Shown: positions 14,233 through 21,984 of the stretch, in pieces
Layout of the letters: each line of letters begins with the position of its first letter
How positions within the stretch are numbered: position 1 is the stretch's first letter
From: a virus
Reading direction: 5' to 3' (one strand)
IMG/VR virus record: IMGVR_UViG_3300025601_000109
Location: 1-25,179 of that record
Length of the DNA: 25,179 nt
Program-made: the position numbers and the translations under genes
The notes under the pieces: model-generated
Seen by the model: the letters and a program-made list of their open reading frames with translations, nothing else
The model's database searches: none
Told to the model about the DNA's origin: nothing

Positions 14233-14676
14233 CTATTTCTTTAAATCTTCTATTAATATATTCTTTACACTGCCTATACCAAGTCTTATATTGATAATAC
14301 CGTTGTAATTGTCATCACGTAGTAATACATTTTCATTAAACTGAAAATAGGCTTCCATGTAATTTGTTTCACCTCTTGCTTTACACAAGTAGATTATTTC
14401 TCTTGTAAAGTTGTTTTTACCTAACTCTTCTATATCTCTTGTCAAACGCTCACTAGATCCCCAGTAGGTCTTCCAGTCTGTTTCCACAGTAGATCTTCTC
14501 TTATTTTTCTTACCTTTCAATGGAGGGCGTTTCTTAACTGTCCAGAAAAACTTCTTTCCTATGTAGTCGTGCCCGTTGGTAGTATTAGTAATTCTATAAA
14601 CGAAACCATAGTCGTCACCAATGTCTTCTGTATTAAAGATCTTGTCCTGATACGTCCAGGGATTTTCGTATGACAA
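14233..14676 (-). CDS. GIY-YIG nuclease, TTG start
   Basis: 147 residues from a TTG at 14676. AAAGGA lies 7-12 nt upstream, and the start falls just after the stop of the radical SAM gene. An ATG further upstream (14808) would give a long out-of-frame overlap with that gene, so it is rejected. GIY-YIG motifs: GFVY at 24-27 (the GIY half) and YIG at 38-40, followed by a basic stretch PPLKGKKNKRR and a conserved Tyr-Trp-Gly-Ser-Ser segment; the Glu in NYMEAYF is a candidate catalytic metal ligand. Proteins like this occur as free-standing nucleases in T4-like phages (Seg type), where they can act as homing endonucleases. Whether this one is mobile, or has a repair role, is not shown. Confidence 0.75.
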   Translation of the reverse strand: MSYENPWTYQDKIFNTEDIGDDYGFVYRITNTTNGHDYIGKKFFWTVKKRPPLKGKKNKRRSTVETDWKTYWGSSERLTRDIEELGKNNFTREIIYLCKARGETNYMEAYFQFNENVLLRDDNYNGIINIRLGIGSVKNILIEDLKK

Positions 14677-14692
14677 TATTATTCCTTTTGAT

Positions 14693-15706
14693 TTACCAAT
14701 TAGTTGCGTAGTCTTTATCAACGACGTTGCTATTACATTTATCCTTGCATTCCGACCAGGGGAAATTTTCAAAATCATTGGACCAAAATTCATCATTGAT
14801 AACAGCAACTAACGTTTTTTTAGTGAGATCAAAGTGCTGACTTAACGTCATCCACTCGTTGTTGTGAGTATATCTATTTGCCACCCAACAGCAAGGAAAA
14901 AACTTTCCTTGGCTATTTATAAACAATCCCTTGTTACCTATTCCGCACAATGGCTTAATGCCGTTTATCTCTTCTTGTTGCTGAAATAACCTGTCATTAG
15001 TAGTCTGACCTACAGTGCTAACAGACCGTGCTGTAAGGCTCCTTAATTCACGCTCAAACCTATGAGTATTACTAATATTATTATCTCTTGGCTGCAATTC
15101 ATCGTTAAACGGGTATATAGGATACACTTTGTTAAACTTAGTACTACGAGTTATTTGAAATTCATCAAATCCTAATTGTCTACTTTGCTCTTCAATGAAG
15201 TCTAAATGATCCTCATTGAACTTAAACAGAATAGTATCTCTGGTCATAAACACATCACTGGACTGTCTTAACATTCTAACTCCGGTAACAATACTATCCC
15301 AATCGCTATTTACTCGGTATTGTTCATTGCTCTCTTGGTCCCACCCATCCATACTAAAATGTATATGATCGTCAGCATCTAACACATGCCCTAACTCCAT
15401 CCACCAACTTGGTTTTTTATAACTTCCATTTGTAACTATAACTATCTTAACAGGTTTAACGCTTTTAAAATATTCTATAACTTCAAACAAATCGTGTGCA
15501 TAGATAGGGTCTCCGTCATCACCGCAAAATGTTATTTTTTCAACATGCTCTAAGATAAATTCAGGGGTAAAGTTCTTTTTAAAGAAAGCTAATCTAAGCT
15601 CACTGTTAACTAATGTGTCAGGCACTTCTTCTCTAGCACATCTAGGACACTTTAAGGTACACTTACTTGATATCTCTATATGCCAATGCCATAGTGCTAA
15701 CTTCAT
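14693..15706 (-). CDS. Radical SAM/SPASM-like protein 2
   Basis: 337 residues. A radical SAM iron-sulfur motif C-x3-C-x2-C lies at Cys16, Cys20 and Cys23 (CTLKCPRC). The TIM-barrel pattern follows: FCGDDGDPIY (about 59-68), IVTNGSY (89-95) and HFSMDGWDQ (about 114-122). The C-terminal part has Cys in PLCGIGN, then GKFFPCCWVA and CKDKC, as in SPASM/twitch domains that bind extra clusters. Such enzymes cleave S-adenosylmethionine to make a radical and modify peptides, proteins or small molecules. The substrate is unknown. The start overlaps the stop of the upstream paralogue by 4 nt (ATGA), so translation is probably coupled. Confidence 0.85.
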   Translation of the reverse strand: MKLALWHWHIEISSKCTLKCPRCAREEVPDTLVNSELRLAFFKKNFTPEFILEHVEKITFCGDDGDPIYAHDLFEVIEYFKSVKPVKIVIVTNGSYKKPSWWMELGHVLDADDHIHFSMDGWDQESNEQYRVNSDWDSIVTGVRMLRQSSDVFMTRDTILFKFNEDHLDFIEEQSRQLGFDEFQITRSTKFNKVYPIYPFNDELQPRDNNISNTHRFERELRSLTARSVSTVGQTTNDRLFQQQEEINGIKPLCGIGNKGLFINSQGKFFPCCWVANRYTHNNEWMTLSQHFDLTKKTLVAVINDEFWSNDFENFPWSECKDKCNSNVVDKDYATNW

Positions 15707-16614
15707 GAAAATTCAACCTCACGTTGCCATTGATTAGAAAAACTTGAACCTGATTCATTTGTTTTACATGTTAAACTGCATATATCAACAGGCGTGCTAG
15801 TGGACCAGCTCTTAATAACTTCGTCAAATTTATCAATGGTATTATTTGTCGATGCTATGTAACAACATGGGAAAATCCTCCCATCTGCTGATATATATTT
15901 ACTTTTCTCTAGTATCGCTTCACACTCGATCTTGCCAGCAGTTACAACAGGGTCTTTCCATCCCTTAGGGGGATGTAAAAAAGTTACAGGAATAAAACTG
16001 TGTCTTCTAGATACTTTTGCTCTAAACCAGGCAAATCCTAAATCTTTAGCTTGCTGTTCACATAAGTTAACTTGGTGTTGGTTATGTTCAAATACTATCA
16101 TATCCCAATGGGCAGGCCCACCGGCGGTTATAAACGTGGTAACATTATCTATAACCTTACTCCAATTAACATTTACTCTATAGATGTGATTAGTATCTTC
16201 TAATCCGTCGATACTGAACACAACATAATCTTTTTCACCGGACATTATGCCAGCTAACTCTCGCCACCACTTGCTATCTCTTAACCCACCATTAGTATTC
16301 ACACCTAGTGTAATAGTTGGATTAATACTTCTGAAGTATTTAAAAATTTCTAAAGTGTGCTTACCCGCGGCAGGGTCACCGTAAACGCCACACATAAACA
16401 TCTTGTCTAACTGTCTAATTTCATCTATGGTTATTAACTTTGACAATTGATCAACAGTGAGATGATGTACATTCGATTTGTCAAAGTTAGTATCAGTTTC
16501 TCTTAGACATTGAGGACATGCCGCCTGACAGGCATCTGTTGGTTCTATATGTAAAATCTTACTAAGATCTAAATTAGATTGTGTCAACGTCAGTGCCATA
16601 GGTAGTAAAGCCAT
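15703..16614 (-). CDS. Radical SAM/SPASM-like protein 1
   Basis: 303 residues from the ATG at 16614, or 298 from the ATG at 16599; neither has a strong ribosome binding site, and both lie inside the end of gp46, which suggests translational coupling. The C-x3-C-x2-C motif is at Cys29, Cys33 and Cys36 (CQAACPQC) after HIEPTDA. Conserved radical SAM strands follow: MCGVYGDPAAGK (about 74-85), GVNTNGG (104-110) and FSIDGLED (133-140). Towards the C-terminus IECEAIL, GRIFPCCYIA and CSLTC resemble a SPASM/twitch cluster domain. It is a clear paralogue of the next gene. Both follow gp46 in the same operon; no peptide substrate gene is recognised beside them. Confidence 0.85.
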   Translation of the reverse strand: MALLPMALTLTQSNLDLSKILHIEPTDACQAACPQCLRETDTNFDKSNVHHLTVDQLSKLITIDEIRQLDKMFMCGVYGDPAAGKHTLEIFKYFRSINPTITLGVNTNGGLRDSKWWRELAGIMSGEKDYVVFSIDGLEDTNHIYRVNVNWSKVIDNVTTFITAGGPAHWDMIVFEHNQHQVNLCEQQAKDLGFAWFRAKVSRRHSFIPVTFLHPPKGWKDPVVTAGKIECEAILEKSKYISADGRIFPCCYIASTNNTIDKFDEVIKSWSTSTPVDICSLTCKTNESGSSFSNQWQREVEFS

Positions 16615-18559
16615 TTTCTTTGGTCACAGTTAAAATGTTGTTTACACGACTACTTAGCTCGTCTTTGTGTGACACTAACCATATTGATTTCTTATGTTCA
16701 CGTGACATCTTCTTAAGTATAGCCAATGCAGATTCAACACCACTTTGGTCCATACCTGAGTCAATAAGTTCATCAATGAACAACAAGTTTATAGGGTCGT
16801 AGAGGCTCTCGTAGACATCTCTAAATGCCCATGACAGTGACAAGATCAATCTATTACGCTCGCCTCTACTTAAATTGTCAAAATCTAATTCTCTGCCTAG
16901 TTCTGATATTTCTACAGAAAGATCGCTAAGGAAGGTGACTGTGTGTGGCAGTCCGATTCTTTCTAAGTACTGACCTAAACGAGCGTTTAAGTAGCTAAGA
17001 TTTTGATCAATTATTCTTTTTCTAATAAAACTGTCTTTGTTGGTTAACAGTTTTTGTAGGAATTCTTGATGATCTCTAAGTTTATCAAGATCATTCATAA
17101 TACTGAAGTCTATAACACTAAGTGCAGTATCCTCCATTTCTTCAATTTGTTCTTCATACGGGTCTGTTTCATCTTGCTTGCTTTCTAATTGTGTTTGCAA
17201 GGTTGTCAATGAGTTTTTATGTTCAAACGCATCTTGTTCCGTGGGGTAATATGTTTTAGGAGTAACTCCAGCAGTGCCAACTTCGACTAATGCTTGCTCT
17301 AGTTGTTCTAGTAATTCCGAGTGAACAACGTGCTCTGCTGTTGCGGTTGTTAAGGTGTCTTCTTTTCCTTTAAGTATTTCTTCGTGCTTGTCGTCGTGAA
17401 CCTCTTGCCCGCAAGCATAGCACTTGTGCTCTTTAAGGTCAGCTATTTCTTTTTCAATTTTCGTAATAGAAGTAAATTCACGTGCAATGTCTGAGTTAGC
17501 TCTTGTAATAGAAGTAGATAGGTCATTAATATCTTTAACTTTCTGATTAAACACTACTAACTGTTTGTGTGCATCTAATTCACTGTCGACATCTAATTTT
17601 AACAGGTTATCTAACGCACTTTGTATTTTAGCAACATCTTCGGCATGTTTAGCAAGCCACATTGTTTGTCTACGTTTTAAACTATCAATTTGGTCTTTAA
17701 TCTTTCCATTAGCATCTTGCTCTGCTTTAATACGATACTCTTCTTCTTTAATCGCATCTTTTGTTTGTTTAAGTTTTTCTTTTAAACTGTCTGCTTTCTC
17801 ACTTAACATAGTGATGCCTAGCAGTTGCTCTATAATAGCTTTTTGATCGTTAGCACGAAGGTTTAAGAAGGGTTCTGTGTAGGTGTTTAACGCCACAACA
17901 TGCTTAAACATCTCATGGCTCATACCCAACATTGCTTCTATTTGTTTTTGTGTTTCACGGCTATCGCCTTGTGCTTCATCTGTAATTTCTTGTTCAGTGT
18001 CGCCTACATAAAACTTCATGGTGTTCGGTTTGCGACCGCGTTCGATTCTATATATTTGACCATTGTGATCAAACTCAACTGTGACCAACATACCTTTAGA
18101 GTTAGTTTTATTAATTAAGTTATCACGTTTAATGTTGGTTAATGCTTGCCCATATAAACTGTACGACAGGGCATTAATGATTGTTGTGTTATGAGATAAA
18201 ATGTCGTTTGAATAAAAGCGGTGATCGCTAGAATCCACTGTAACATCATACATGTTTTCTTTATGATCTTTTTGTTTAACAGAAATAACAGTTTCGGGTC
18301 CGTTTCTTGTAATAACCTGTGAGATATTTTCCTGCAAGTCTTTTACAAAGATCTCACAATAATTCGCATCAAATAATATGTGAGTATCAGCGCACTCAAG
18401 AATAATGCCAGATTCAGTTTGAATCTGCCATACTATATATTCGACTGTTTTATGTATTGCAGTCACTGGCCGCCACCCTGAATCAGTGTCAATCTCAAGA
18501 TTGCTAAGATCGATGCTACTAATAAATTTTCTATCTACTGTTTGAGAAATTGTATGCAT
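16574..18559 (-). CDS. 46: Intein C-fragment fused to C-terminal part of recombination ATPase gp46
   Basis: 661 residues. Residues 1-124 are the C-terminal part of an intein: a block-B-like LECADTHILF (His60), a block-F-like MYDVTVDSSDHRFY (about 103-116) and the splice end ILSHN with His123-Asn124, before Thr125. From Thr125 on it is gp46: TTIINALSYSLYG completes the P-loop, then long coiled coils with a CYAC zinc hook (Cys380, Cys383), the ABC signature LSRGERNRL (563-571), Walker B NLLFIDE (591-597) and the SHKDE H-loop (630-634). gp46 with gp47 is the Mre11/Rad50-type nuclease for phage recombination and host DNA breakdown. The ORF alone lacks Walker A. GAAGG precedes the ATG, and the start overlaps the endonuclease gene by 25 nt. 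N-extein plus C-extein would be 589 residues, against 560 in T4. Confidence 0.93.
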   Translation of the reverse strand: MHTISQTVDRKFISSIDLSNLEIDTDSGWRPVTAIHKTVEYIVWQIQTESGIILECADTHILFDANYCEIFVKDLQENISQVITRNGPETVISVKQKDHKENMYDVTVDSSDHRFYSNDILSHNTTIINALSYSLYGQALTNIKRDNLINKTNSKGMLVTVEFDHNGQIYRIERGRKPNTMKFYVGDTEQEITDEAQGDSRETQKQIEAMLGMSHEMFKHVVALNTYTEPFLNLRANDQKAIIEQLLGITMLSEKADSLKEKLKQTKDAIKEEEYRIKAEQDANGKIKDQIDSLKRRQTMWLAKHAEDVAKIQSALDNLLKLDVDSELDAHKQLVVFNQKVKDINDLSTSITRANSDIAREFTSITKIEKEIADLKEHKCYACGQEVHDDKHEEILKGKEDTLTTATAEHVVHSELLEQLEQALVEVGTAGVTPKTYYPTEQDAFEHKNSLTTLQTQLESKQDETDPYEEQIEEMEDTALSVIDFSIMNDLDKLRDHQEFLQKLLTNKDSFIRKRIIDQNLSYLNARLGQYLERIGLPHTVTFLSDLSVEISELGRELDFDNLSRGERNRLILSLSWAFRDVYESLYDPINLLFIDELIDSGMDQSGVESALAILKKMSREHKKSIWLVSHKDELSSRVNNILTVTKENGFTTYGTDVDTI

Positions 18560-19723
18560 TGTTGAATTGTACCTTCTCTGTTATTTTTAAAATCACGTTC
18601 CCACACTACTAAAACTTCATATCCTTGCTGTTTGGCAAATTCTATTTTTGACTTGTCTAGTATCCATTTTTCTGAAGCTTGCAGTTTAGTTCTCGGATTT
18701 ACATACTCCGGAGGATAAATTTTAGGATTACAATGCCAGAAGTCTCCATTGTATTCGATTATTTTATTAGCAACCGCTATGTCATAGACGTATTGTTTTT
18801 TAGAATTAATTGCTAGAGTAAGCTGAGCTATGATTGGCAGACTGTTATCAACTTTTCTGATTTCGTTTATTATTTCTCTCTCAGCTACAGATACTGATAT
18901 TCCTTTTGTGAGTTTTAGTTTATTAATTCTTGCTTTTTCCTCGTCTGTCTTTGCATTTAGCGTTGCCTGCCAGCTATCTTGCCTATCTTGCCAAATTTCC
19001 AGACCTTTAGTTTTACCGTGCCTTGCTATACAAATTTCTTTCGAGAAATGTTTCTGGTTAGCTGATACTAATTTCTTTGCTTCATCTTTGCTAGCTCCTC
19101 TCGCAGTGTAATACTCTAAACATCTTTTTGACGAGATTTTGCGTACAGTAGAATCGGCTGAAGCACTAGCCCCTTTCTTGTTGTTGCTTTCTTTTGTGCA
19201 AGCAGCAAAATCCTGCGCATCGCTATTACTATAACCTTTTTTAATCCAGTATTCTTTTTTAATAGGTCTACGAGAGTTCCGTTCGAAGTCAGCTTCGTCT
19301 ACTAAATAGTGCTTGTTTGTCGCAGGATTAATTTTTTCTAACCAAAATTCCTGGCTATAAACACTTTTGCAATTTTTCTGTTTATTTTCTTTAGCTTTTA
19401 CATACGCTTCGGCTGTGCTCCATCCTCTCAGTATCCAATAATTTCTAGTATGTCTAGAGTCAGAAGTAACAAGACCTAATTTGGTTCGAACATATTTTTC
19501 TATTTCTTTTTTAGAGTTCTTGATATTAGCCTGAGCTATGTCAGTTAGTAACGTTTGGTATGTGTTGGGTTCTATATTTTTGATAACTGTTTCCATTACT
19601 TGCGTGCAGTTATCATTTAGGCTGTTGTTCCATCGCGGCATTGTGTAAATCCCCTATTGTCGTTTCGTAAATTTCACCGGTTACTGTGTTTTTTACTTTT
19701 ACAATAGTATTTATGCCTAGACA
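18188..19723 (-). mobile_element. Split intein with endonuclease gene inserted in gp46
   Basis: The element runs from the first intein codon (Cys, 19723) to the last (Asn, 18188). It consists of a 36-codon N-fragment (19723-19616) with a TGA stop, the endonuclease gene (19641-18535) and a 124-codon C-fragment (18559-18188). Removing it rejoins the gp46 P-loop as NGTGK-TT exactly. This is the 'fractured gene' layout described from marine metagenomes by Dassa and colleagues (2009). The N-fragment ends before intein block B, like the atypically split AceL-TerL intein, and unlike the common split after block B. Confidence 0.9.
18535..19641 (-). CDS. Vsr/EDxHD-like homing endonuclease between intein halves
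   Basis: 368 residues. The C-terminal nuclease domain (about 284-350) has YVYDIAVANKIIEYNGDFWH and then KSKIEFAKQQGYEVLVVWERDF (positions about 330-350), the pattern of the very-short-patch-repair-like EDxHD homing endonucleases. The N-terminal and middle parts hold repeated helical motifs: YWILRGWSTAEA, YWIKKGYSNSDAQD and EYYTARGASKDEA, followed by a longer SWQATLNAKTDEE element. These look like NUMOD-type DNA-contacting modules. The enzyme would cut intein-less gp46 alleles so that the element is copied in by repair; that is known for the class and inferred here. Its start overlaps the N-fragment gene by 29 nt and its end overlaps the C-fragment gene by 25 nt. An alternative ATG at 19596 lacks a ribosome binding site. 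Confidence 0.85.
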   Translation of the reverse strand: MPRWNNSLNDNCTQVMETVIKNIEPNTYQTLLTDIAQANIKNSKKEIEKYVRTKLGLVTSDSRHTRNYWILRGWSTAEAYVKAKENKQKNCKSVYSQEFWLEKINPATNKHYLVDEADFERNSRRPIKKEYWIKKGYSNSDAQDFAACTKESNNKKGASASADSTVRKISSKRCLEYYTARGASKDEAKKLVSANQKHFSKEICIARHGKTKGLEIWQDRQDSWQATLNAKTDEEKARINKLKLTKGISVSVAEREIINEIRKVDNSLPIIAQLTLAINSKKQYVYDIAVANKIIEYNGDFWHCNPKIYPPEYVNPRTKLQASEKWILDKSKIEFAKQQGYEVLVVWERDFKNNREGTIQQCIQFLKQ

Positions 19724-19879
19724 CTTGCCCGTACCATTACGTGCACCTGTATCATCACCTCCAAGGTCTACGTTAACGCCTAGTACCAAGGTTAGGTCAT
19801 CACGGTCAAAGTTAACTGCTTGTGTAGCATTACCTACACTCATGAAATTTTTCACTGTGAGTGTTTTTATTTTAAACAT
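19613..19879 (-). CDS. 46: N-terminal part of gp46 fused to intein N-fragment
   Basis: 88 residues. Residues 1-52 are the start of gp46: MFKIKTLTVKNFMSVGN, as in Rad50/SbcC-type ATPases, up to the P-loop GARNGTGK. Residue 53 is Cys, and 53-88 (CLGINTIVKVKNTVTG onward) fit intein block A: a Cys nucleophile, then a T-I-V-K-V strand and an ETTIGDL turn. The ORF stops at TGA without any intein block B, which is found in the other piece. The break falls after the P-loop Lys, so neither half can bind ATP alone. AAGG lies upstream, and the start overlaps the previous gene by 8 nt. Confidence 0.92.
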   Translation of the reverse strand: MFKIKTLTVKNFMSVGNATQAVNFDRDDLTLVLGVNVDLGGDDTGARNGTGKCLGINTIVKVKNTVTGEIYETTIGDLHNAAMEQQPK

Positions 19880-20408
19880 TATTAATTTGTGCCTTAAATT
19901 TCTCTAATTGGATACTACTTAAATTTAACAAGTGTGCTCGATTGTGAGTTAATACATCTGTAATTTTATATAAGTCTTGTTTAACATCTTCTAATGGTTG
20001 ATCAACAAACGTTTTAATAGAATCACATACTGTGTAAAATCGAGACTCAGGGTGTTGAATATCATCATATGACTCATTTATTATAGCAGAAAATGTTTTA
20101 AACCCATTCTCTTTAAGAAATTTTAAGGTATGATAAGCCCCAACTATAATAAAAGGTCTCAATGATGCCATTGATCTATAAGTTTTTTCGGTAATATACG
20201 GGTAAGGGTAATCAAATACCGTTTCTGCAACAATATCAACTCCAATTTTATTATAAAAATCTGAGTTAAATCGATATTCAACATTTGGTAATCCCTTAAC
20301 AATAGGATCTTTACAATCTTCTGATATTGAGGCAAAATTAATGTCGCTGTTCTCACTAGCAAACAAATCATTAATACGAGTCGTTGGATATGTGTTTAAT
20401 AAAGTCAT
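19872..20408 (-). CDS. Glycosyltransferase-like protein, C-terminal-half type
   Basis: 178 residues. The core motif PYITEKTYRSMASLRPFIIVG (residues about 70-90) followed by LKFLKENGFKTF and NESYDD resembles the donor-binding half of fucosyltransferase-like (GT10-like) proteins found in many marine T4-like phages. The N-terminal domain usual in that family is absent. The start overlaps the preceding gene by 4 nt (ATGA), and that gene looks like the missing N-terminal half, so the two may form one enzyme. The reading frame has a stop (TAA) three codons before the ATG, so a simple frameshift joining is not supported. Substrate unknown; surface or DNA glycosylation are possibilities. Confidence 0.6.
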   Translation of the reverse strand: MTLLNTYPTTRINDLFASENSDINFASISEDCKDPIVKGLPNVEYRFNSDFYNKIGVDIVAETVFDYPYPYITEKTYRSMASLRPFIIVGAYHTLKFLKENGFKTFSAIINESYDDIQHPESRFYTVCDSIKTFVDQPLEDVKQDLYKITDVLTHNRAHLLNLSSIQLEKFKAQINNV

Positions 20409-20971
20409 TGTTTGTTAAAATTAGTTTGTAGTGCTATGTTTGGTAATAGATTAGTATCTTTTATAAAATTACACAGTCCTACTCTATGAGACCTTTCGGC
20501 CCCTAGCATACATAACCCGGCTTTTTCAATTTTATTAAAATCAAAATTAGTGTTATCGGTATAATTAATAGCTGTACCTAAATCTGTGTTAGACAACAAA
20601 GTTTCTATTATAGTTGGACGATCTCTTAGGTGATGGTTGATTAACAGTTGGTTAAATTCTTTTTCAATACCGTGGTGATTAGTAACAAATAGTAATAGGT
20701 ACAACGGGATATCTTTATTTTTAAATAATCTAATTAAATTTATAATTAGTAACCCCTGAGACAACAGCGGATCATAATAATCAGTGTCCATGTGAACTAA
20801 TAAAATTCTATCTGATGGAGAATATTGTTCTTTTTTAATATTAGTTAACAATTCCTCTAGATACGGTAAGTTAGTGTCAATGGACATGCAATTCATAGAC
20901 AACAATACATTAAATTTTTTACTAATTATTTCCTCAGCCTCAGGATGAAGTTCGGTACCTAATATACTCAT
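20405..20971 (-). CDS. Glycosyltransferase-associated protein, N-terminal-half type
   Basis: 188 residues. It contains RILLVHMDTDYYDPLL (55-70) and, near the end, CMLGAERSHRVGLCNFIKDTNLLPNIAL (154-181, named by its ends), a 'G-x-x-R-x-H-R-x-x-L' segment that in related single-chain phage proteins precedes the ITEKT domain. Here that domain is encoded by the next gene, reached by a 4-nt ATGA overlap. Its own start overlaps the gp47 stop by 4 nt. I cannot name an activity; the pairing with the next gene is an inference from order and motifs. Confidence 0.5.
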   Translation of the reverse strand: MSILGTELHPEAEEIISKKFNVLLSMNCMSIDTNLPYLEELLTNIKKEQYSPSDRILLVHMDTDYYDPLLSQGLLIINLIRLFKNKDIPLYLLLFVTNHHGIEKEFNQLLINHHLRDRPTIIETLLSNTDLGTAINYTDNTNFDFNKIEKAGLCMLGAERSHRVGLCNFIKDTNLLPNIALQTNFNKQ

Positions 20972-21984
20972 AAGTCCCTATAAATTTCTAACAACATCTT
21001 AGGATCATAGTGATCACTTTCAATGTTAGTCAACTGATTAGTAACAATAGTATCTACTGATTCAAACTTCAACTGTCCAGGCGCAAAGTCTTGTGATAAG
21101 TCAGCATTTTTAATAGGTATTAGAGTAAGTTCACGTAGACCATATGTGCCTACAAATGTTTCTCGTATGTAACTAGCTTCTTCGTAACTGATATCAATAT
21201 CAATGTTTACCCTGGTGTGCATACCTTTGTGTAATAGATCTGCTGGTGCCTCTAATACATCACTGAGTTTGTATACTCTGTATCTAGGTTGATCAGGCCA
21301 CGAATAAAACTCTGGATCTTCACCCCAAGTTAACACGGTCATTCCTCGGGCATCATCACCAGCATCTGCATAGTTGTGAGGAAAGCAATTACCAGTATAG
21401 ATAATGTTTTTCTTTTGTTGTCTTTTGTGAAAGTGACCTGTGTATACTGACTCTAAACCTTGGAAGTCTTCTCCTTGTATCTCACCTGTGTCTGGCATTT
21501 GTACCATGGCATTCATAAAGAAATGTGGAAGTTCTAAATGACCAAACAGATAACGACCTTCTAGTTTCTTAACTTTTTTATGATCATCACCTACTAGCCA
21601 CGGTGCAAACTGTACATCACCTTCTTTGTAAAAGTCATTTACTATCTCAACATTAGGAACATGTTTGGCCCATGCCGCACTTTGTACATCTCGTTTGTCT
21701 CTATAATATAGATCGTGATTACCAGGAATAAAGAATACTCTGTCGAATGCTTGTCCTAGTAATTCAATTGCTTGTAGACTGTAGTTAAGTGTAACAATGT
21801 TGATAGCAGAACGATTGTTGTGCCAGTCACCCATCATGATACAGGTTTCGCAACCCTCTTCTTTGGCCTTAGTGATAAACCATTTGACGAAATTCAAACA
21901 GTCTTCGTTGTGTAGCTGGCTATTTGACTTTAATCCAAAATGTATATCTGTCAGAATAGCCGCTTTTTTAAATAGATTACTCAA
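20968..21984 (-). CDS. 47: Recombination nuclease subunit gp47
   Basis: 338 residues, matching T4 gp47 (339). It is the Mre11/SbcD-type metallophosphoesterase: ILTDIHFG with Asp13 and His15, MGDWHNN (51-57), PGNHDLYY (87-94), FGHLELP and TGHFHKR further on. It pairs with the ATPase gp46 to process DNA ends in recombination-dependent replication and to degrade host DNA. It lies between gp55 (25 nt upstream) and the glycosyltransferase-like pair that separates it from gp46. All motifs are intact. Confidence 0.95.
   Translation of the reverse strand: MSNLFKKAAILTDIHFGLKSNSQLHNEDCLNFVKWFITKAKEEGCETCIMMGDWHNNRSAINIVTLNYSLQAIELLGQAFDRVFFIPGNHDLYYRDKRDVQSAAWAKHVPNVEIVNDFYKEGDVQFAPWLVGDDHKKVKKLEGRYLFGHLELPHFFMNAMVQMPDTGEIQGEDFQGLESVYTGHFHKRQQKKNIIYTGNCFPHNYADAGDDARGMTVLTWGEDPEFYSWPDQPRYRVYKLSDVLEAPADLLHKGMHTRVNIDIDISYEEASYIRETFVGTYGLRELTLIPIKNADLSQDFAPGQLKFESVDTIVTNQLTNIESDHYDPKMLLEIYRDL

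Follow-up and report, generated by a model that had tools for sequence, protein, structure and literature searches.

Evidence for a mobile split intein in the P-loop of a fractured phage gp46 gene

Fractured genes, split inteins with a short N-terminal part, and inteins inserted into P-loops are all known. The inteins of the fractured genes for gp41, NrdA, NrdJ, and IMPDH are canonically split, with a long N-terminal fragment (IntN) and a short C-terminal fragment (IntC), and these genes, with their EDxHD endonucleases, were reportedly described by Dassa et al. in 2009. Here we consider a stretch of viral DNA of 25,179 nucleotides (nt) (IMG/VR record IMGVR_UViG_3300025601_000109, positions 1 to 25,179; the window) in which gp46, the gene for a Rad50/SbcC-like recombination and repair ATPase, is broken inside its P-loop, with an open reading frame (ORF) for a homing endonuclease between the two halves. 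We think it very likely that the break is made by a mobile class 1 intein of the atypical (S2) split kind, which would act by trans-splicing and spread by endonuclease homing. The element is most likely of the AceL-TerL/GOS-TerL type, residing in a fractured gene.

Atypically (S2) split inteins have an IntN of 15 to 37 amino acids (aa) (PMC13014065). AceL-TerL (25/104 aa) and GOS-TerL (37/115 aa), with fragments nearly identical in size to those found here (36/124 aa), are reported to splice (PMC11766414). With these and with Cat, the gp46 intein shares a split near the N-terminus (IntN of 25 to 37 aa and IntC of 104 to 115 aa in the TerL group), and the IntC of Cat is related to it in sequence (2e-6). 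Related split inteins accompanied by the same endonuclease family are likewise found at TerL P-loops. The differences lie in the host gene, a terminase there and gp46 here, and in the nucleophiles, which are Cys1 and Thr+1 in gp46 and Cys1/Cys+1 or Ser1/Cys+1 in the TerL inteins (PMC11766414).

The fractured genes of Dassa et al. resemble this locus in having a free-standing endonuclease ORF between the intein halves of a phage gene, and two of the inteins, gp41-1 and NrdJ-1, are matched by the gp46 IntC profile; in gp46, however, the split and the homing endonuclease gene (HEG) come after about 36 residues of intein. The PolB gene of Aeromonas phage Aes123 (JN377899) has the same order of N-ORF, VSR-like HEG, and C-ORF, with short overlaps and a related HEG (E 2e-10), but there the host gene is a DNA polymerase and the intein is cysteine-less with a longer IntN. 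Contiguous TerL inteins of Ackermannviridae, such as that of Vibrio phage Kuja, carry homologues of both IntN and IntC at the same type of P-loop site; unlike the gp46 element, they occupy one continuous ORF in another host gene, are of the cis-splicing kind, and come without an endonuclease. The intein in gp46 of Salicola phage SCTP-2 sits at the identical P-loop position, yet it is contiguous, about 330 aa long, and Ala-starting, and is not recognizably related by the IntC profile. We found no earlier report of a split intein in gp46 in the literature searched, whose coverage lacks several key papers, and gp46 seems to be new as a host for such inteins. A recombination and repair ATPase would thereby be added to the known cases of gene fracture by a split intein.

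The break in gp46 and the intein at its edges

All features of the locus given in this section lie on the minus strand. The N-ORF (19879..19613; 88 aa) consists of 52 aa of gp46 (19724..19879), ending in GARNGTGK and so reaching through the P-loop Lys, and of the 36-aa IntN (CLGINTIVKVKNTVTGEIYETTIGDLHNAAMEQQPK) with its stop codon (19613..19723), whose Cys1 codon is at 19721-19723. The C-ORF (18559..16574; 661 aa) starts with the 124-aa IntC (18188..18559), which ends in SNDILSHN with the Asn124 codon at 18188-18190, and resumes gp46 at TTIINALSY for 537 aa and a stop codon (16574..18187). Between them, the endonuclease ORF (18535..19641; 368 aa) overlaps the N-ORF by 29 nt and the C-ORF by 25 nt. 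An earlier note on this DNA had read these junctions in the same way, with Cys-starting intein sequence after GARNGTGK, an intein ending in SHN before TTIINALSY, and a separate endonuclease ORF overlapping both neighbors, and we see each of them at these positions.

The break is exact. The N-ORF matches the PHROG_77 (SbcC-like) profile up to position 333 and the C-ORF from position 334 to 952 (E 6e-82), so that no part of gp46 is missing or doubled. Joined, the exteins give a protein of 52 + 537 = 589 aa, the size the earlier note had expected of a spliced product, with a P-loop variant (ARNGTGKT), a zinc hook (CYAC), a signature motif (LSRGE), and a Walker B motif (LLFIDE). A gp47/SbcD-like partner gene lies upstream (20968..21984; PHROG_100 E 2e-58, Metallophos Pfam). 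The ABC-ATPase motifs, the zinc hook, and the nearby gp47 are those of a gp46/SbcC/Rad50 protein. The P-loop Lys and Thr are thus carried by separate polypeptides. In the frame common to both halves, 44 stops separate them, which rules out readthrough.

An intein is expected to be inserted in frame at a conserved site of a protein with uninterrupted homologues, and this is what was found: the site GARNGTGK^TTIINALSY is empty in 77/77 of the nearest readable gp46 relatives. The residues of a class 1 intein are kept (Cys1, block B His60, block F Asp105, His123-Asn124, and Thr+1). In IntN, C1, I4, T6, T15, G16, T22, and G24 are invariant across the gp46 and TerL relatives, as are His60, Asp105, His123, and Asn124 in 28 IntC sequences from gp46, TerL, and helicase hosts; the block B Thr is replaced by Ala (motif CADTH), as in VidaL. 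A profile of these 28 sequences matched gp41-1 (1e-9), VidaL (2e-9), Cat (2e-6), NrdJ-1, and others in the PDB. The AlphaFold model of IntC alone (predicted local distance difference test score 85) superposes on VidaL with a template modeling (TM) score of 0.77 and a root mean square deviation of 1.0 over 102 columns, and nearly all of its 50 PDB matches at E<=1e-3 are inteins or related Hint/Hog domains; IntC is thus predicted to have a Hint-like fold. The single-ORF TerL of Kuja (748 aa) contains, in order, a match to the IntN profile (E 8e-4), a short linker, and a match to the IntC profile (2e-42), indicating that in the window a single intein has been divided at that linker into the two fragments. 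A 36-aa IntN, block B in IntC, and separate ORFs with Shine-Dalgarno (SD)-like sites are the marks of an S2 split. The earlier note's proposal of a split intein in the gp46 P-loop finds support in profiles, fold, conservation, the empty site, and contiguous homologues. The S2 position of the split, the mobility of the element, and the large family to which it belongs go beyond that note.

We propose that the class 1 intein, inserted between the P-loop Lys and Thr with Cys1 at one end and His-Asn/Thr+1 at the other, gives rise through the overlapping ORFs to three proteins, gp46N-IntN, the homing endonuclease, and IntC-gp46C. The two downstream ORFs would each be translated from their own ribosome site: AGGGGA (19650..19655), within the IntN coding sequence, for the endonuclease, and GAAGG (18572..18576), within the 3' end of the endonuclease ORF, for the C-ORF; the latter site is mostly AGAGGAAG in relatives. 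Docking of the 36-aa IntN on its 124-aa partner IntC would then complete a Hint fold, which would excise itself and join the halves, yielding gp46 of 589 aa with its P-loop restored. Element-free gp46 genes would be cut by the endonuclease, and repair would copy in the IntN-HEG-IntC unit. Splicing, the specificity of cleavage, and the dependence of the phage on the spliced product are what we infer. With the Lys and Thr on separate chains and purifying selection acting on both halves, one may reasonably suppose that phage recombination depends on intein activity, although host recombination could substitute. Whether a phage can tolerate a Rad50-type enzyme made only by protein trans-splicing is a testable question. 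In T4, gp46/gp47 may have a part in homing (PMC2988022), which makes gp46 an interesting choice of host and raises the further question of whether the element depends on the very gene in which it resides.

Mobility of the unit and the endonuclease within it

The strongest evidence for mobility comes from gp46 genes of the L031-L034 type and the L168-L170 type, which have in common a 1,536-nt IntN-HEG-IntC block at 99.8% DNA identity, with flanks that are 72% identical on both sides. Between the L033-type and L168-type genes, identity drops no more than about 20 nt from either splice junction; each of the two genotypes was found in at least three assemblies. On an extein tree, nine presence/absence changes are needed, at least five of them on starred branches. 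Apart from the window, the clade in which it falls is empty, and this includes its nearest relative (74% identical). The nearest relative of the endonuclease (L022, 75%) lies in a gp46 with a C-extein only 59% identical. Synonymous divergence (pS) is 0.50 for IntN and 0.73 for the HEG, compared with 0.84 for the exteins. Both presence/absence polymorphism and transfer of the unit into homologous alleles are expected of a homing element and are seen here, and by these alignments the element moves as a block, precisely at both splice junctions. The natural sequence pairs show a split intein and its separate endonuclease traveling as one precise unit.

It is worth noting that the unusually low pS of IntN (window 19616-19723) starts right at the splice junction and is lower still (0.27) where IntN overlaps the start of the endonuclease; gene conversion or a constraint on the ribosome site or on RNA may be the cause.

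The endonuclease has a VSR/EDxHD-like C-terminal domain (...YDI..KIIEYNGDFWH...) and 11 full-length relatives at 55-75% identity, in which E254, D287, H303, and D329 are conserved. In tblastn, it matched annotated VSR endonucleases at E 2e-10 to 4e-10, among them the "putative VSR endonuclease" between the PolB split-intein halves of Aes123. The sequence is a mosaic, with residues 1-148 89-95% like L022 and residues 260-333 about 89% like L029. In two relatives, the split gp46 has outlasted its endonuclease: the HEG is cut down to a 36-aa ORF (L161) or broken (L179), and both intein halves are intact. In L161 (3180-3900; gp46, IMGVR_UViG_3300023049_000060), the halves lie in one frame with a single TAA between them.

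Alternatives and points that weigh against an intein

The window comes from a metagenome assembly, which might contain false stops or be chimeric, and one relative, L047, does look chimeric and has frameshifts. For the window, such an artefact is exceedingly improbable and was rejected: a second IMG/VR contig spans the locus at 99.96% identity (two mismatches in 5,555 nt), the halves are set apart by all of the 44 stops, and the three-ORF layout is common to more than 12 distinct relatives from many other assemblies, with intein parts at 50-83% protein identity to the window. The order is kept in all gp46 relatives complete enough to check. The overlap of endonuclease and IntC is exactly 25 nt in all checkable gp46 relatives except L047, and that of the N-ORF and endonuclease is 17-38 nt where the endonuclease start can be placed. 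An SD-like GGAGA/GGGGA precedes the endonuclease start at the same spacing in 11/11 sequences compared, and an SD-like motif precedes the C-ORF start in 10/11. In L047 itself, the sequence upstream of the element is L033-type and the gp46 downstream of it is L168-type, and single-base indels are present; this contig is probably a chimera, assembled across the element that the two types share.

That leaves explanations in which the break is real. A free-standing endonuclease might have inactivated gp46, leaving decaying intein remnants in a pseudogene while the host or another gene provides for recombination; gp46 is after all physically broken, and endonucleases are damaged in some relatives (L179, L184). 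We regard this as very unlikely. No damage is seen in the exteins, IntN, or IntC, either in the window or in the distinct lineages examined, and they are under purifying selection, the median ratio of nonsynonymous to synonymous divergence being 0.32-0.37 for IntN, IntC, HEG, and extein; the splicing residues are invariant, and the halves remain intact after HEG loss. Marginally less probable still is that the halves associate without splicing, making gp46 a two-chain nicked ATPase with the intein parts as a docking domain only. Residues with no role beyond the chemistry (Cys1, block B His, block F Asp, His-Asn, and Thr+1) are kept, and an active site with its P-loop Lys and Thr on either side of a nick would be unusual. 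Repair at the RNA level, by a group I/II intron, frameshifting, or bypassing, would fit the frequency of homing-endonuclease introns in phage genes and the shared frame of the N- and C-ORFs. That frame is common to nearly all readable loci of the window's group and is not shared in several TerL and other gp46 relatives, so it reflects ancestry rather than a rule. An intron was rejected for want of any Rfam intron match in 16000-21000, and readthrough or frameshifting by the in-frame stops; with more than 1 kb between the halves, and an insert whose two ends are both coding and bear intein motifs and a Hint-like fold, we give RNA-level joining almost no chance.

Several results weigh against a mobile split intein itself. 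IntN alone, which is too short for such a search, gave no intein match in the PDB, only short chance matches; Pfam found no Hint domain in the N-ORF or C-ORF, and NCBIfam intein_Cterm scored 14.1 bits, under its cut-off of 15.6. The extein tree is a quick one with several long branches. Synonymous divergence of IntC (0.80) does not differ significantly from that of the exteins, and the support for mobility therefore comes from the values for IntN and HEG, together with the near-identical pairs and the tree. The Vsr profile matched the endonuclease at E 0.7, and Pfam gave weak MTES_1575 and DUF559 matches only. A fold search found the catalytic domain of I-Bth0305I (EDxHD) with a probability of 0.92 but at E 0.47 (TM 0.60 of target), and the whole-chain model has a predicted TM score of only 0.35, so these fold matches are suggestive only. 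An EDxHD/VSR-like type is likely, not proven. Of the earlier note's fractured gene with an EDxHD endonuclease, the layout holds, with a free-standing endonuclease gene between two intein-carrying gene halves and a counterpart in Aes123 PolB; the EDxHD assignment is moderately supported.

Range of the family and neighboring genes

IntN, HEG, and IntC sequences of the same family are found at the P-loops of TerL, of a T4-type gp46 subfamily, and of DnaB-like helicases. These short-IntN split inteins form a family with dozens of natural variants for protein ligation. Besides Kuja, L243 and L246 are contiguous relatives. In the TerL of L227, the IntN profile matches at E 9e-18 in the same ORF as IntC. 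In L227 (412-1944; IMGVR_UViG_3300032753_001047) and L229 (IMGVR_UViG_3300032561_000875), the frame from IntN to IntC is open throughout, and a different frame of this DNA encodes a 279-aa endonuclease. No stop was seen in the intein frame, where about 19 would be expected, and 0/5,000 synonymous shuffles of the endonuclease reached zero; the arrangement resembles an unbroken intein with an endonuclease nested in it out of frame. The IntC DNA of L230 is 100% identical to that of L227 and L229 and lies in a TerL with an extein 71% identical.

One can envision IntN-HEG-IntC as a single three-ORF mobile element with two interconvertible forms, the fractured one of this gp46 and a contiguous one with the endonuclease overprinted, in another frame, on an unbroken intein ORF, as L227 and L229 suggest; sitting in gp46, a possible resector of homing breaks, it would control how part of the machinery for its own mobility is assembled. 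We offer this as a speculative idea that is more likely wrong than right.

In SCTP-2 (L003:2352-5117), the gp46 with the contiguous Ala-starting intein is gene 539, annotated "hypothetical protein." The seemingly unrelated intein at the same position means that the gp46 P-loop has probably been invaded at least twice, SCTP-2 probably representing an independent invasion. The annotated TerL of this phage (L250:2492-3385) begins with IntC-like sequence, suggesting that it carries a second, split intein. Apparent gp46 intein matches in Asteriusvirus (tblastn, from query residue 78) were rejected as chance extension; gp46 of 121Q and Munch is uninterrupted.

Downstream of gp46, the window holds a second gene of the homing-endonuclease type, an ORF for a SegE-like GIY-YIG homing endonuclease (14233-14808; Pfam SegE_GIY-YIG 2e-37). 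Directly downstream of gp46 (14693-16614) come two neighboring proteins that look like paralogues; they have CxxxCxxC motifs and clusters of cysteines at the C-terminus and by eye are radical SAM/SPASM-like.
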